Shown: positions 21,441 to 63,116 of the stretch, piece after piece | Layout of the letters: every line of letters begins with the position of its first letter | Position numbering within the stretch: the stretch's first letter is position 1 | From: Lactococcus termiticola | GTDB lineage: Bacteria > Bacillota > Bacilli > Lactobacillales > Streptococcaceae | Direction of reading: 5' to 3' | NCBI RefSeq assembly: GCF_003116835.1 | Contig: NZ_BFFO01000004.1 | Location: forward strand, 1-64,000 | Length of the DNA stretch: 64,000 nucleotides | The notes under the pieces: model-generated | Databases searched by the model: none | What the model saw: only the letters and a program-made list of their open reading frames with translations | Told to the model about the DNA's origin: nothing | Made by a program: the position numbers and the translations under genes

Positions 21441-21570
21441 ATCAACAATCCTTTCATTTTTCTACGACTCATGTTCTTGTCATTATTTTATCATTTTTCT
21501 CTCATCTAAAATAACGATATACAAATTTAGAGTTTCTAAAATGAAAGTATTTTGATAAATTCAGTTGACC

Positions 21571-21715
21571 AGTGGAGTGGAAGAAAAAGGCCGAGGAATT
21601 GTGAAAAAGACAAAACTGAAGACCGCATGGGCTTCAGTTTTAGCAATGAGACGCCGGAGGCGTCTGCTTGCGGGTCACACAGTTCCTCGGCCTTTTTCTG
21701 TAACGAAACGACTCA
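21571..21715 (+). repeat. Family 1 three-way-junction repeat, copy A
   Basis: The left flank AGTGGAGTGGA leads into outer arm 21582-21604 (AGAAAAAGGCCGAGGAA..GTGA), which pairs with 21675-21699. Inner hairpin 1 is AAAACTGAAG / CTTCAGTTTT and inner hairpin 2 is AGACGCC / GGCGTCT, enclosed by GCAA / TTGC. The right flank is AACGAAACGACTC. The outer arm is unrelated to those of other copies. The rest of the 21441-21749 gap shows nothing else. Confidence 0.8.
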
Positions 21716-24762: not shown

Positions 24763-24769
24763 TGGTCTT

Positions 24770-24915
24770 GCCGTTCCGCTTTAGGAAGCCGGTGGAAATG
24801 CTGTGAGGCCCGCGAGCAGACCGCTTTGCGGTCTCATCGCTAAAAGTCGAGCCCGATGCTCTCGCCATTTGCCTATTTTCACGGCATTTCCACCGGCTTC
24901 CTGAAGCTTCACTGT
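24770..24915 (-). repeat. Family 1 three-way-junction repeat, copy E (reverse)
   Basis: The outer arms at 24783-24806 and 24879-24902 pair over 24 bp with one G-U. In the family orientation, hairpin 1 is GGCGAG / CTCGAC-like and hairpin 2 is AGACCGC / GCGGTCT. Its junction-closing pair is GCGA / TCGC, whereas the other copies have GCAA / TTGC: a compensatory double change that supports the fold. Confidence 0.8.
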
Positions 24916-46729: not shown

Positions 46730-46739
46730 AATATAGAGA

Positions 46740-46880
46740 TTGTGCCTGGGCTTCGCTTCACTCCGCTCGAAGGGAAGCTAATCGGCGGAACATGCTCTGA
46801 GTTCTAATTTGCCGATGATCTTCCCAGGCTTCGTTCTGCTTGGCAAGTGCTGTAAGGCTGTAGCTGATTTTTAAGGAGTT
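46740..46880 (+). repeat. Family 3 repeat, copy 3a
   Basis: It begins TTGTGCCTGGG. It contains the two-block stem GGGAAG-CTA-ATCGGC / GCCGAT-GAT-CTTCCC around a loop of about 24 nt, then TTCGTTCTGCTTGGCAAGTG. The same order occurs at 49826-49945 and, inverted, at 50262-50378. The AT-rich 46881-47059 between 3a and 3b has no supportable gene. Confidence 0.65.
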
Positions 46881-49807: not shown

Positions 49808-49825
49808 ATATGCGGGATATATAGA

Positions 49826-49945
49826 TTGTGCCTGGGATACGCTTCACTCCGCTCAAGGGGAAGCTAATCGGCGGAACATGGTCTGAATTCTAATTTGCCG
49901 ATGAACTTCCCACACTACGTTTTGCTTGGCGAGTGCTGTAAGGGT
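49826..49945 (+). repeat. Family 3 repeat, copy 3c
   Basis: It begins TTGTGCCTGGG and has the stem GGAAG-CTA-ATCGGC / GCCGAT-GAA-CTTCC, then ACGTTTTGCTTGGCGAGTG. It is the left arm of an inverted pair with 50262-50378. Confidence 0.7.
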
Positions 49946-49961
49946 GGATCTGTCTGTGTTT

Positions 49962-54936: not shown

Positions 54937-54982
54937 ATTTTTAGGCCTGATTCATGTTATAATATCTAGCGAATGTCTTTGG

Positions 54983-55125
54983 GCGTTCCGTCACAGTTTT
55001 TTCGCAAAAGCACTGTGAGGCCGCAAGCGAAGCCTTCGGCTTCCATTGCTAAATGTCGAGCCCTTTGGTCTCGCCATTTGCCATATTTCACAGTGTTTTT
55101 GCGTAAAAACTGTGACTCCACTTAT
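54983..55125 (-). repeat. Family 1 three-way-junction repeat, copy F (reverse)
   Basis: The outer arms at 54990-55018 and 55088-55116 pair over 29 bp with one mismatch and one G-U, the longest stem of the family. Inside are GAAGCC / GGCTTC and CGAGACC / GGGCTCG-type hairpins. Its GTGGA end faces copy B. The 55126-55227 spacer holds no recognisable feature. Confidence 0.8.
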
Positions 55126-55227
55126 GCCTATTTACAACATGAATGAGGACCTTTTGGGATAGGTCTCTGCTCATGGAGTAGCTTACCACTAACACGACAA
55201 GTTTTTGGTGATTATAAAATAGTCACG

Positions 55228-55376
55228 AGTGGAGTGGAAGAAATCTGCCCGATTGGCCGTGAAAATTGGCAAATTGGGAGACCCGTAGGGGCTCACGATT
55301 TAGCAATGGAACGGCGTAGCCGTTCGCTTGTGGCCACACGGTCAATCGGGCAGATTTCTGGAACGAAACGGACCCA
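55228..55376 (+). repeat. Family 1 three-way-junction repeat, copy B
   Basis: The left flank is GAGTGGAGTGG. Outer arm AGAAATCTGCCCGATTG (55239-55255) pairs perfectly with 55343-55359, extended by CCGTG / CACGG. Hairpin 2 is GAACGGC / GCCGTTC. The right flank is GGAACGAAACGGACCC. It is head to head with copy F and lies about 50 nt upstream of veg. Confidence 0.8.
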
Positions 55377-58850: not shown

Positions 58851-59732
58851 ATGGAGTCAATTGGTGAAATCCTAAAAAAACGTGGCGATATCAAGCAGCA
58901 ATTTGATGGCCTCGTTGCTGAAACTTTGGCTCATCCAGAAGTAAAGGCTTTTATAGCAGAACATAAGCTAAGTACAGATGAGATTCAACGCTCTTATTCT
59001 AAATTTTATGAATATGTCAAAGCTAAAGCTGCTTTTGATGCTGGTGAAGATTCAGCAACATCAGGCTATGAACCAAAGCTTGTTATGAATCAAGGCTATG
59101 CGGATGTCTCTTATAAGACGACAGCTGAACTGGCAGCACTTCAAGAAAATCAATCGCAGCGGCGGCGCGTTCAAGTCATCGGCTTACCAAAGACGATGAA
59201 AGATGTGCGATGGAAGGATGTCCTTCTGGACGATAAGTCTCGGATAGAGGTTTATCAAGCGATTTCCAATTTTATTGCGGAGCCAAAAACAGAAAAAGGC
59301 CTGTATGTCTACGGAGATTTTGGGACAGGAAAGTCTTATATGATGGCTGCCATGGCGACAGAGCTTGCTAAAAAAGGCATTACCACAACACTGATTCACT
59401 ACCCAACCTTTGTTCTTGGAAATAATTTTGATACGGTTATTGAACGAGCTGAAGAAGTTAAGCGTGCTGAGGTCTTAGTCCTTGATGACATCGGTGGGGA
59501 AACCAACAATGCTTGGATTCGTGACTCGATTCTTCAAGTTATCCTTCAACATCGTATGCAAGAAGACTTACCAACTTTCTTCACATCAAATCTTTCGATG
59601 GAAGATCTTACACAGCACCTTGCTGAAACCAAGCGTCAAGAAGATATATGGCCTGCACAGCGTGTTATGGAACGAATCAAATACTTGGCTCGTGAACTTA
59701 GACTAGAAGGAGGCAATCGCCGACATGGATAA
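58851..59732 (+). CDS. dnaI: Primosomal protein DnaI (helicase loader)
   Basis: This is a 293-residue AAA+ loader of the replicative helicase. Walker A GDFGTGKSYMMAAMA is at about residue 155, Walker B VLVLDDIGGETNNAW at about 205, and an arginine-finger region MERIKYLAREL lies near the C-terminus. The N-terminal domain binds the helicase. The gene is visibly AT-richer than its neighbours. The ATG abuts the dnaB-type stop, and its own stop overlaps the nitroreductase gene by 8 nt. Confidence 0.93.
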   Translation: MESIGEILKKRGDIKQQFDGLVAETLAHPEVKAFIAEHKLSTDEIQRSYSKFYEYVKAKAAFDAGEDSATSGYEPKLVMNQGYADVSYKTTAELAALQENQSQRRRVQVIGLPKTMKDVRWKDVLLDDKSRIEVYQAISNFIAEPKTEKGLYVYGDFGTGKSYMMAAMATELAKKGITTTLIHYPTFVLGNNFDTVIERAEEVKRAEVLVLDDIGGETNNAWIRDSILQVILQHRMQEDLPTFFTSNLSMEDLTQHLAETKRQEDIWPAQRVMERIKYLARELRLEGGNRRHG

Positions 59733-60441
59733 TGTGATTGATTTAATGAAAAAACATACTTCTGTTCGTAATTTTACGGAGGAAGTCATTCCCGATGAGG
59801 TCATCAAAGACCTGATTGAGGCGGGACGAGCCGCTTCAAACTGGAAGAATTTCCAGTCTTACTCAATCATCGTCGTCAAGAGCAAAGAGCAAAAAGAGGC
59901 GATTTACGAGCACCAGCCTCAGAAGTCGATTATTAATAGTTCGCACTATCTCGTCTTTGTTGGCGACCTCAAGCGGGCGGAGACGGCGGTCACAATGAAC
60001 GGTGGGGATTTCCAGCCAGCTGGTGTAGAGTCTCTGCTTATCAGCTCGATTGATGCGGCTTTGGCTGCTGAAAATATTTTGGTCGCAGCGGAAAGCCTGG
60101 GTTACGGCGGTGTTATGGTCGGCTTGATTCGTGACCAGTCGGCTGAAATCTCAGATGTGATGGGCCTGCCAGACTATACCTACCCGCTCTTTGGCATTGC
60201 CCTAGGTAAGCCAGCCCGACTCAATGAAGTCAAGCCCCGTCTGCCTTATGAGACGGTCGTCTTTCCTGAGAAATATGTCGTCCAAGATGAAGAAGTCATC
60301 AAGGCTTACGATAAGGTCCAGACTGATTATGCAGGCCAACGTCGTGTCGACTCCACCTGGTCAGAACGCATGGTCAGCCAATGGGGACAGCCTGAGCTCA
60401 AGAGCTCAACAGAAAATTTGAAAGCAAAAGGCCTTTTATAA
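59725..60441 (+). CDS. NADPH-dependent nitroreductase/FMN oxidoreductase
   Basis: This is a 238-residue flavoprotein of the nitroreductase superfamily (NfsA/FRP-like). KKHTSVRNFTEE and the FMN-binding AGRAASNWKNFQSYSIIVV are typical, as are SLGYGGVMVGLIR and PLFGIALGKPA. It reduces flavins, quinones or nitro compounds; the substrate is unknown. It overlaps dnaI by 8 nt. Its stop lies inside the perfect palindrome GCCTTTTATAAAAGGC (60431-60446). Confidence 0.88.
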   Translation: MDNVIDLMKKHTSVRNFTEEVIPDEVIKDLIEAGRAASNWKNFQSYSIIVVKSKEQKEAIYEHQPQKSIINSSHYLVFVGDLKRAETAVTMNGGDFQPAGVESLLISSIDAALAAENILVAAESLGYGGVMVGLIRDQSAEISDVMGLPDYTYPLFGIALGKPARLNEVKPRLPYETVVFPEKYVVQDEEVIKAYDKVQTDYAGQRRVDSTWSERMVSQWGQPELKSSTENLKAKGLL

Positions 60442-60465
60442 AAGGCTTCAGTCTGCTGTATTGGT

Positions 60466-60612
60466 TCGTTCCGTTTCAGCCTTTCGGCTAAATTGCTGTG
60501 GGGCCCGCAAGCAGACCGCTTTGCGGTCTCATTGCTAAATTTGGAGACTTTAGGCTCCAAATTTGCCTTATGCCACGGCAATTTATCCAAAAGGCTGGAA
60601 CTCCACTCGTGC
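60466..60612 (-). repeat. Family 1 three-way-junction repeat, copy D (reverse)
   Basis: The outer arms at 60478-60501 and 60573-60596 pair over 24 bp with two mismatches and one G-U. The inner hairpins are AGACCGC / GCGGTCT and TTTGGAG / CTCCAAA. Its ACTCCACTCG end faces copy C, about 40 nt away. Confidence 0.78.
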
Positions 60613-60648
60613 CTAAAATCTTAAACCTTTTATAGGTTGGGAAGGAAT

Positions 60649-60790
60649 GAGTGGAGCGGAAGGAATCTGAATGATTTACTATGAAAAAGGCAAATGGCGA
60701 GACCGAAGGGCTCGACATTTAGCAATGAAAGCGAAGCTTTGCTTGCGGCCCATAGTAAATCATTCAGATTCCTGTAGCGAAACGGACCCC
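60649..60790 (+). repeat. Family 1 three-way-junction repeat, copy C
   Basis: Outer arm AGGAATCTGAATGATTTAC (60661 onward, 23 bp) pairs perfectly with 60751-60773. The inner hairpins are CGAGACC / GGGCTCG and AAAGC / GCTTT, enclosed by GCAA / TTGC. The right flank is AGCGAAACGGACCCC. It is head to head with copy D, directly upstream of der. Confidence 0.82.
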
Positions 60791-60816: not shown

Positions 60817-62127
60817 ATGACACTACCAACTATTGCCATCGTCGGCCGACCTAATGTCGGAAAATCGACGATTTTCAACCGGATTGCCGGTGAACGGATT
60901 TCCATTGTCGAAGACACGCCTGGCGTGACCCGTGACCGGATCTATGCCCAGGGCGAATGGCTCACTCGCAAATTCAATATCATTGACACTGGAGGGATTG
61001 AGCTTTCTGACGAGCCCTTCATGACTGAAATCCGTGCCCAGGCAGAGATTGCCATGGAAGAAGCCGATGTCATCGTTGCTGTTGTCGACGGGGAAACCGG
61101 CATTACTGATGCTGACGAGGCCGTCGCACAAATTCTCTATCGGACCGATAAGCCCGTTATTCTTGTGGTTAACAAGGTCGATAATCCAGAGCGACGGATG
61201 GAAATCTTTGATTTCTATAGCCTGGGTCTTGGTGACCCTTATCCCGTCTCTGCCGTTCATGGCCTGGGGACCGGTGACCTGCTTGATGCTATCGTCAAAG
61301 AGCTTCCGATGATCGAAGAGGAAGACGATGAGGATGTGATTAAATTCAGCTTGATTGGCCGTCCTAATGTCGGCAAGTCTTCCCTGATTAACGCCATCCT
61401 CGGCGAAGAGCGGGTCATCGCCTCACCGATTGCTGGGACGACGCGTGACGCCATTGACACCCACTTTACAGACGAGACCGGCCAAGAGTTTGTCATGATT
61501 GACACGGCCGGAATGCGTAAATCTGGGAAAATCTATGAGAATACTGAAAAGTACTCTGTCATGCGTGCCATGCGTGCCATTGACCGATCAGATATTGTTT
61601 TGATGGTCATCAATGCTGAAGAAGGCATCCGGGAATACGACAAGCGTATCGCTGGCTTTGCCCACGAAGCAGGTAAAGGCATCATCATCGTTGTCAATAA
61701 ATGGGATACCCTCGACAAGGACAATAAGACTATGCAGCAATGGGAAGAAGACATCCGCTGGGAATTTAAGTACCTGGACTATGCCCCTATCATGTATGTC
61801 TCAGCCAAGACCGGCCAACGCCTCGGCAAAATCCCTGATAAAATCAAGGAAATCTCTGCCAGCCAGAAACTCCGGATTACCAGCTCTGTCTTGAACGACG
61901 TCATCATGGACGCCGTCGCTATCAACCCGACACCGACCGACAAGGGCAAACGCCTGAAAATATTTTATGCGACCCAAGTGGCCATCCAGCCACCGACCTT
62001 CGTCGTCTTTGTTAATGAAGAAGAGCTCATGCACTTTTCATACATGCGTTTCCTTGAAAATCAAATCCGTAAGGCCTTTGTCTTTGAAGGAACCCCAATT
62101 CACATGATTGCTAGAAAGCGGAAATAA
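60817..62127 (+). CDS. der: Ribosome biogenesis GTPase Der
   Basis: This is a 436-residue double GTPase needed for 50S assembly. G1 motifs GRPNVGKS occur at residues 8-15 and about 179-186, NKVD and NKWD at about 120 and 290, and a C-terminal KH-like domain closes the protein. The RBS is weak (AGAAAG). The gene follows the repeat pair D-C and touches the acetyltransferase gene directly. nrdR-dnaB-dnaI-der order matches streptococci apart from the inserted nitroreductase and repeats. Confidence 0.97.
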
Positions 62128-62912: not shown

Positions 62913-62918
62913 TCAGAC

Positions 62919-63053
62919 AGAGTGGAAGAAATCCCGCCCCAATGCTGTGAAAAAGACAAAAGTCGAGACCGAAAGGGCTCGACTTTTAGCAATGAAAGCG
63001 AAGCTTTGCTTGCGTGTCTCACAGCATTGGGGCGGGATTTCTGGAACGGTCCC
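62919..63053 (+). repeat. Family 1 three-way-junction repeat, copy G
   Basis: The left flank is GAGTGGA. Outer arm 62927-62950 (AGAAATCCCGCCCC...) pairs perfectly with 63019-63042 over 24 bp. Hairpin 1 is GTCGAGACC / GGGCTCGAC with a GAAA loop; hairpin 2 is AAAGC / GCTTT within GCAA / TTGC. The right flank GGAACGG is shortened. Confidence 0.85.
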
Positions 63054-63116
63054 TTTGCATAGAGATACCGCCTAATGTTCGCATTGCTACTTTAGCAGTA
63101 TCTTCTAAGCACCTGG

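Follow-up and report, generated by a model that had tools for sequence, protein, structure and literature searches.

How do the two arms of a long hairpin stay complementary to one another while the sequence of the stem changes? This question is raised by an element at positions 60649-60788 of the window, the whole stretch of 64,000 nucleotides analysed here. The element is one copy of a hairpin-repeat family in a 1.73 Mb Streptococcaceae genome, recognised at E = 6.6e-39 by R1, a covariance model that we built from 53 copies. Its arms, 60661-60683 and 60751-60773, are complementary at 23/23 positions, and its predicted fold is a three-way junction in which the outer stem encloses two inner hairpins (Table 1). 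Positions 60649-60790 (142 nt) folded at -61.5 kcal/mol with a z-score of -8.4, an energy equalled by none of 200 shuffles. Furthermore, exact 18-mer inverted repeats no more than 160 nt apart were confined to three 200-nt bins of the window, every one of which holds a family copy, and none arose in five mononucleotide shuffles of the window. The fold z-score together with this 18-mer count rules out a chance inverted repeat.

The element has a nitroreductase-family gene (59725-60441) and der/EngA (60817-62127) as its neighbours, and it stands head-to-head with an opposite-strand copy (60463-60608) 40 nt away. We compared the der locus in 16 relatives, 4 of which keep the same upstream gene and 12 of which have another one. 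The gap upstream of der in those 4 measures 27 nt in G045 and G034, 106 nt in G018 and 217 nt in G012, where it is filled by other sequence, and no element was seen by eye at the orthologous site in any of them. The absence agrees with what a MITE would show, and it could reflect either a gain here or a loss there. At the gathering score, an Rfam search of the window returned no matches. With blastn (E ≤ 1e-4), neither the whole element nor a Streptococcus member of the family matched plasmids or phages, and the exact core pattern of the family was absent from viral contigs. The first-pass annotation of this DNA had suggested searching individual arms against the same genome and against mobile elements. 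Such a search, run for the arm of the 60649-60788 copy, found only its own two arms genome-wide within 3 mismatches and no exact match in viral contigs, and for this copy we reject the idea that the arm acts as a guide or target. Elsewhere, the window also contains a 136-nt direct repeat, 88% identical between 46731-46866 and 49817-49952, with the two units 3086 nt apart.

Table 1 Positions of the element, its parts and the other family copies in the window
Feature	Position	Strand	Evidence
Element under study, one family copy	60649..60788	+	R1 E 6.6e-39; fold z -8.4 for 60649-60790
Left (5') outer-stem arm	60661..60683	+	23/23 complementary to 60751-60773; unique within 3 mismatches
Right (3') outer-stem arm	60751..60773	+	Complementarity to 60661-60683
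Stem foot, 5' side: GT, open triplet GGA, GC, open triplet GGA	60651..60660	+	Fold; family triplet counts
Stem foot, 3' side: GTA, GC, GAA, AC	60774..60783	+	Fold; family triplet counts
Inner hairpin 1 (GAGACC..GGGCTC)	60692..60720	+	Fold; helix 4: 97.0% of cells paired, double changes in 7/10 pairs
Inner hairpin 2 (GCAATG..GCTTGC)	60722..60746	+	Fold; helix 5: 98.9% paired, double changes in 6/7 pairs
Head-to-head partner copy, loop 2 nearly closed (TCC/GAA)	60463..60608	-	R1 E 4.9e-32
Family copy, loop 2 closed (CAC/GTG)	54980..55123	-	R1 match; loop-2 triplets
Family copy, head-to-head with 54980-55123	55227..55374	+	R1 match
Family copy, arm positions 24/24 paired, none unpaired	62915..63055	+	R1 match; arm alignment
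Family copy	21570..21714	+	R1 match
Family copy, loop 2 nearly closed (TTC/AAA)	24768..24914	-	R1 match; loop-2 triplets

At least 150 dispersed copies of about 145 nt are present in this genome, all of them matching R1 at E ≤ 1e-5, and 7 of the 150 listed copies lie inside the window. This number is a lower bound because only 150 of 862 candidates were scored with R1; at least one further copy, which carries an inserted module, was seen by eye in a spacer of contig C12. Outside the arms, the copies have a conserved foot, GT-GGA-GT-GGA / GGA-AC-GAA-AC, made of 2-bp steps between 3x3 GNA/GNA loops. The foot (GTGGAGTGGA/GGAACGAAAC) is common to the copies and the arms are variable. Its inner step covaries, reading GT/AC in 73 copies, GC/GC in 21, AT/AT in 14 and AC/GT in 6 (n = 130). 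The GNA/GNA foot recalls a DNA structure, namely that of (GGA)2 motifs, in which sheared G.A pairs flank a base that stays unpaired. A literature search for the (GGA)2 DNA motif gave nothing on it among the matches listed, and among the papers listed in further searches none was seen to describe this repeat family. The same foot is present in a 54-nt bare hairpin and in a 111-nt form. At least five copies (L006, L008, L023, L004 and L027) were seen by eye to contain an extra folded module of about 75 nt before the right arm, which is inserted and does not replace the right half. The module (CATGCGACT..CTTAGCGAGCATGGAGAGCGTAGTGGC) looks, by eye, like folded stretches that relatives carry upstream of der (L263, L267). 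Flank logos of 137 copies showed little signal beyond the element, no target-site duplication was identified, and empty orthologous sites were too diverged to fix its ends.

The first-pass annotation had claimed that each copy has a different arm, that within a copy the two arms match almost perfectly, and that this sets the family apart from ordinary MITEs, whose terminal inverted repeats are shared among copies. The near-perfect match was borne out. In addition to the 23/23 positions of the element studied here, the copy at 62915-63055 pairs at 24/24, and for the family as a whole Watson-Crick pairs make up 94.2% of the arm positions of 137 of the 150 copies, a figure that is raised by our filter (at least 14 paired positions and at least 75% paired), which dropped the other 13. 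Among those 137, 27 are without any unpaired or gapped arm position. The unfiltered arms of all 150 copies comprise 3069 paired positions, 74 G.T, 60 A.C and 89 other mismatches, and 579 gap columns, many of which are alignment ends. The individuality of the arms stood less well. The arm of 60649-60788 is indeed unique in the genome, but the family has an arm consensus, GAAATTCTGAAAAACACTGTGA, to which left-arm identity has a median of 65%, with 5th and 95th percentiles of 17% and 91% (n = 137), and 38 of 137 copies have an arm in common with another copy at 88% or more. To call the arms copy-specific is therefore an overstatement: they share a consensus and drift from it. The contrast with MITEs is weaker than claimed because of this consensus, and those 38 copies with an arm in common show what the annotation had named as evidence against its claim. 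Even so, an arm matches its own partner at 88.7% over 24 positions, compared with 49% for arms taken from different copies.

The pairing is maintained within copies, in place. On the 53 copies used for the model, 95.3% of cells are paired, compared with 73.5% when shuffled and 34-45% when slid, and double changes occur in 38 of 43 pairs, amounting to 465 cells versus 117 in the shuffled set. When arm positions 3-10 were compared between copies, both sides differed in 34111 cases, the left side only in 1899 and the right side only in 1639. In agreement with the earlier expectation that the arms do not diverge independently, mismatch within a copy does not grow with the divergence of its arm from the consensus (rho 0.04, n = 137). 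Nearest-neighbour identity among the 137 best-scoring copies has a median of 0.79 and a maximum of 0.905. Because none of these 137 has a relative closer than 0.905 and mismatch is flat, we take these copies to be old and their pairing to have been kept where they stand.

We looked to the two loops of the foot for a trace of how this is done, since the same annotation had proposed a process in which one arm serves as the model for the other. The loop triplets were examined in 146 of the 150 copies, and 16 were dropped as out of register, leaving 130. GNA/GNA is found at loop 1 in 110 and at loop 2 in 90 of these. The remaining loop-2 types are TNC/GNA (23 copies), GNA/TNC (2), TNC/other (3) and other (12), and the number of paired positions in loop 2 is none in 75 copies, one in 22, two in 7 and three in 26. 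The 26 fully paired loops compare with 7.0 after shuffling of the 3' triplets, with a maximum of 16 over 10000 shuffles. The one-step intermediates TNA and GNC occur on the 5' side of loop 2 in 0 of 130 copies, and the 3' side shows one TNA triplet. Among the 23 TNC/GNA copies, 18 have a middle base complementary to its counterpart in their own opposite arm, versus 7.0 in shuffles. Of the fully closed loops, 18 are TNC/GNA, 2 are GNA/TNC and 6 are without GNA on either side, and in 21 of the 26 copies pairing runs exactly to loop 1, which is still open. Because the middle base is matched and the 5' intermediates are missing, rewriting from the copy's own arm is the simplest reading of loop 2, and we take its pattern as the footprint of arm-templated copying. 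The footprint is supported, not proved, by these counts, being a pattern across paralogues and not a dated event. The proposal that one arm is copied onto the other thus draws on the loop-2 closures, but loop 1 speaks less clearly for it: TNC/GNA is found there in only 3 copies, and TNA or GNC stands on its 5' side in 3 copies and on its 3' side in 3 (n = 130). Moreover, most copies keep loop 2 open and free copying would close loops, so that selection or short tracts must also act.

The closed copies do not cluster on a tree of the inner core (about 70 nt), on which closure needs 25 changes compared with a shuffled mean of 23.9; in a control on the same tree, consensus-like arms do cluster (31 changes versus a shuffled minimum of 34). 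The GC step of the foot is likewise not clustered (21 changes versus a shuffled mean of 19.9), and this core tree may therefore be blind to the foot. The closed copies have lower arm identity to the consensus (0.44 versus 0.68) and GC steps in 8 of 26 copies versus 11 of 97, features that an old closed subfamily would give too.

Neighbouring copies also follow an order. Wherever two neighbours among the 150 listed copies lie no more than 700 nt apart, which is so in 37 pairs, they are head-to-head without exception, with a spacing of mostly 36-109 nt, and the window contains two of them (54980-55374 and 60463-60788). The unlisted C12 copy is on the minus strand and has a listed copy on either side (by eye), and since it breaks the pattern the head-to-head rule is not absolute. 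We rejected inverted duplication as the origin of these pairs, because partners resemble each other no more than randomly chosen copies do (identity 0.674 versus 0.676). By eye, two head-to-head pairs of this genome (C4:70408-70709 and C6:94742-95084) enclose about 300-340 nt, maybe with small open frames, in a composite-like arrangement. With a mechanical choice of ORFs, 112 of 113 units could be placed in a gene context, which is tandem in 75, convergent in 27 and divergent in 10.

REP/BIME palindromic units resemble the family in being short, dispersed and often fixed in their orientation to one another. They differ in that the family copies are about 145 nt long with a three-way junction, and in that the present genome is without a Y1/RAYT transposase match: the Y1 transposase domain PF01797 gave 0 matches at E ≤ 1 in this genome, in a search whose control was positive in 10 of 14 genomes, which counts against a REP/RAYT element. 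The family consists of dispersed intergenic copies with an extensive fold, as do the BOX-type repeats of S. pneumoniae and S. suis, which likewise reach about 100 or more units in a Streptococcaceae genome and are intergenic, folded and modular (PMC3049150). The layout of the copies resembles that of BOX and RUP repeats, and a further likeness to BOX is the excess of convergent over divergent gene contexts, here 27 versus 10 of 112 units; the inserted modules, seen here by eye in at least five copies, may be another (PMC3049150). The likeness is one of description. The foot motif, the inner hairpins and the rewriting of arms were not found among the features described in the available part of that source (PMC3049150).

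Taken with the maintained pairing, the loop-2 closures lead us to propose, at a probability of about one half, that template switching between the arms keeps the copies of an old dispersed repeat paired, together with the weeding of copies that lose the loops or inner hairpins. The element would be one copy of an old, dispersed, intergenic repeat with a long stem on a three-way junction. The sequence of the stem would change fast, and its pairing would stay because replication sometimes takes the same copy's other arm as template. The agent would be quasipalindrome template switching, or an equivalent hairpin conversion, which would erase raw mutations in short tracts, and function or the ability to spread would then remove any copy in which the open GNA/GNA loops and the pair of inner hairpins are lost. 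Quasipalindrome template switching, as inferred from rRNA histories, similarly rewrites one arm of an imperfect hairpin from the other and gives multi-base compensatory changes in one step (PMC8794818); there the record is the history of rRNA, and here it is some 150 paralogous loci of one genome with countable loop closures. In the 25 copies with one changed side at loop 2, that side is the 5' one in 23 and the 3' one in 2. More tentatively, so lopsided a closure would point to a strand-specific process, for example copying at a stage when one of the element's strands is exposed as single-stranded DNA. The direction is opposite to that of intrastrand switching as proposed in PMC8794818, which counts against copying, as do the open state of most loops 2, the one-step types at loop 1, the RNA-like mismatches of Streptococcus members (35:6 and 13:3, below) and the better average fold of the sense strand.

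Selection at the DNA level alone is the rival that survives best, and we regard it as somewhat unlikely. Here the hairpin or cruciform, with its GNA/GNA foot and inner hairpins, would be bound by a protein, for example a nucleoid protein or an enzyme that mobilises the element, unpaired copies would be lost, and the closed-loop copies would be an old subfamily. Such selection accommodates the fact that most copies retain their open loops and inner hairpins, the strand-symmetric mismatches, the head-to-head arrangement of the 37 listed pairs of neighbours, and the differences in arm divergence and step type between closed copies and the rest. However, by itself it leaves unexplained why closures track the copy's own arm without intermediates, and the mismatch types in the arms look unfiltered (G.T 62, A.C 51 and other 67, in 137 of 150 copies). 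Furthermore, no Y1 transposase was found, and we know of no partner protein for the hairpin family.

Those mismatch types bear more directly on RNA-level selection, under which every copy would be, or lie in, a transcript with an important fold, either a small RNA or an untranslated-region element. If an RNA fold were under selection, G.T should be tolerated over A.C. In addition to the near balance in the arms, 1x1 mismatches counted over every stem of the 150 copies came to 61 G.T and 55 A.C in a fold that forbids G.U. In contrast, the acceptor and T stems of tRNAs from the same genome gave 29 G.T, 2 A.C and 10 other mismatches, in a control that set the register individually for each tRNA and covers 24 of 33 tRNAs, the other 9 being dropped, and 30 of 45 tRNA places. 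G.T and A.C are similarly frequent in either orientation to tandem genes (24:16 in sense copies, 19:20 in antisense copies, p = 0.37), and the idea that RNA-level preferences were hidden by pooling sense copies rich in G.T with antisense copies rich in A.C is not supported by this comparison, which is of limited power. The sense strand does fold better in free folds, at -69.7 versus -65.9 kcal/mol on average, as RNA-level selection would have it, but the antisense strand contains more G.U (244 of 6979 pairs versus 179 of 7037), and the copies occur in both orientations. The pairing constraint looks strand-symmetric in this genome, which argues against RNA-level selection here, and we consider this account decidedly improbable.

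Support for it comes from relatives. Under strict filters, R1 matched 13 of 98 genomes, namely the present one, 3 of the 5 labelled g2 and 9 of the 10 labelled g5, and it matched 0 of 17 other members of the window's genus. The named exact matches to the core were 8 Streptococcus contigs and one Streptococcaceae MAG, and because the g5 loci resemble these, we infer that g5 is probably Streptococcus. Two such genomes contain 30 and 21 family matches. Streptococcus members show a G.T:A.C ratio of 13:3 in 45 loci, which are non-independent. A further set was drawn from the glyQ-glyS spacer, for which a glyS-start search of 118 g5 genomes matched 85 and the best 30 were taken; 29 of the 30 carry a member that was assigned by pattern to one of three sub-types, and the remaining one, L187, was read by eye as the second sub-type. 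The three sub-types fill the same intergenic spot in different g5 species (L167-L196). Their outer arms are unrelated, yet paired. Mismatches in 30 distinct glyQ-glyS sequences favour G.T over A.C at 35:6, with a structure taken from an RNA fold that admits G.U. Among glyQ-glyS orthologues within sub-types, two Watson-Crick types occur in 5 of 156 pairs, two of those in the outer arms, and most other changes are one-sided, chiefly G.T. Many g5 copies (L227-L252) are followed after about 40 nt by a rho-independent-terminator-like sequence, as if they lay in 3' untranslated regions (by eye).

A known RNA also touches these members. Of 13 loci searched, 7, all from g5, match the Rfam family RF02616 (SSRC8_2) at E values from 9.6e-15 to 1.2e-8, over a region that takes in model positions of about 150-209, and these Streptococcus loci score 42.5-61.8 bits, below the gathering cut-off of 72. 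At E ≤ 1 there was no match for L001 and L016 of the present genome, nor for L052, L055, L090 and L091. SSRC8 is an sRNA of S. pyogenes that was seen on Northern blots and that the available part of the source describes as an sRNA, not as a dispersed repeat (PMC3675131). The family may act as RNA in Streptococcus.

Two remaining accounts fare worse. Gene conversion between copies could spread matched arms, and the 38 of 137 copies that share an arm at 88% or more are what it would leave, but most arms are without such a partner, head-to-head partners show no excess of similarity over random copies, and the middle base of the loop tracks the copy's own arm; we hold this very unlikely. That arms were perfect at the birth of a copy and then decayed neutrally, with nothing maintaining them, is hardly credible, for although the mismatches look like raw mutation, there are no near-identical copies among the 137 (the best reaching 0.905), pairing nevertheless stands at 94%, and mismatch is flat with divergence.

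By what means long stems stay perfectly paired while mutations strike at random is an open question, and template switching has been proposed as an answer from rRNA histories (PMC8794818). With some 150 paralogous hairpins, open loops that serve as built-in reporters and strand-symmetric mismatches, the rate, tract length and direction of arm copying become countable in one genome. Covariation among repeats need not imply selection on RNA. We tentatively suggest that arm copying might outrun point mutation, in which case the roughly 150 hairpins would evolve as self-templated units, their sequence drifting almost freely and their complementarity being rewritten repeatedly. If the re-copying of arms is true, the family would be a natural, and unusually readable, record of how hairpins keep their pairing.
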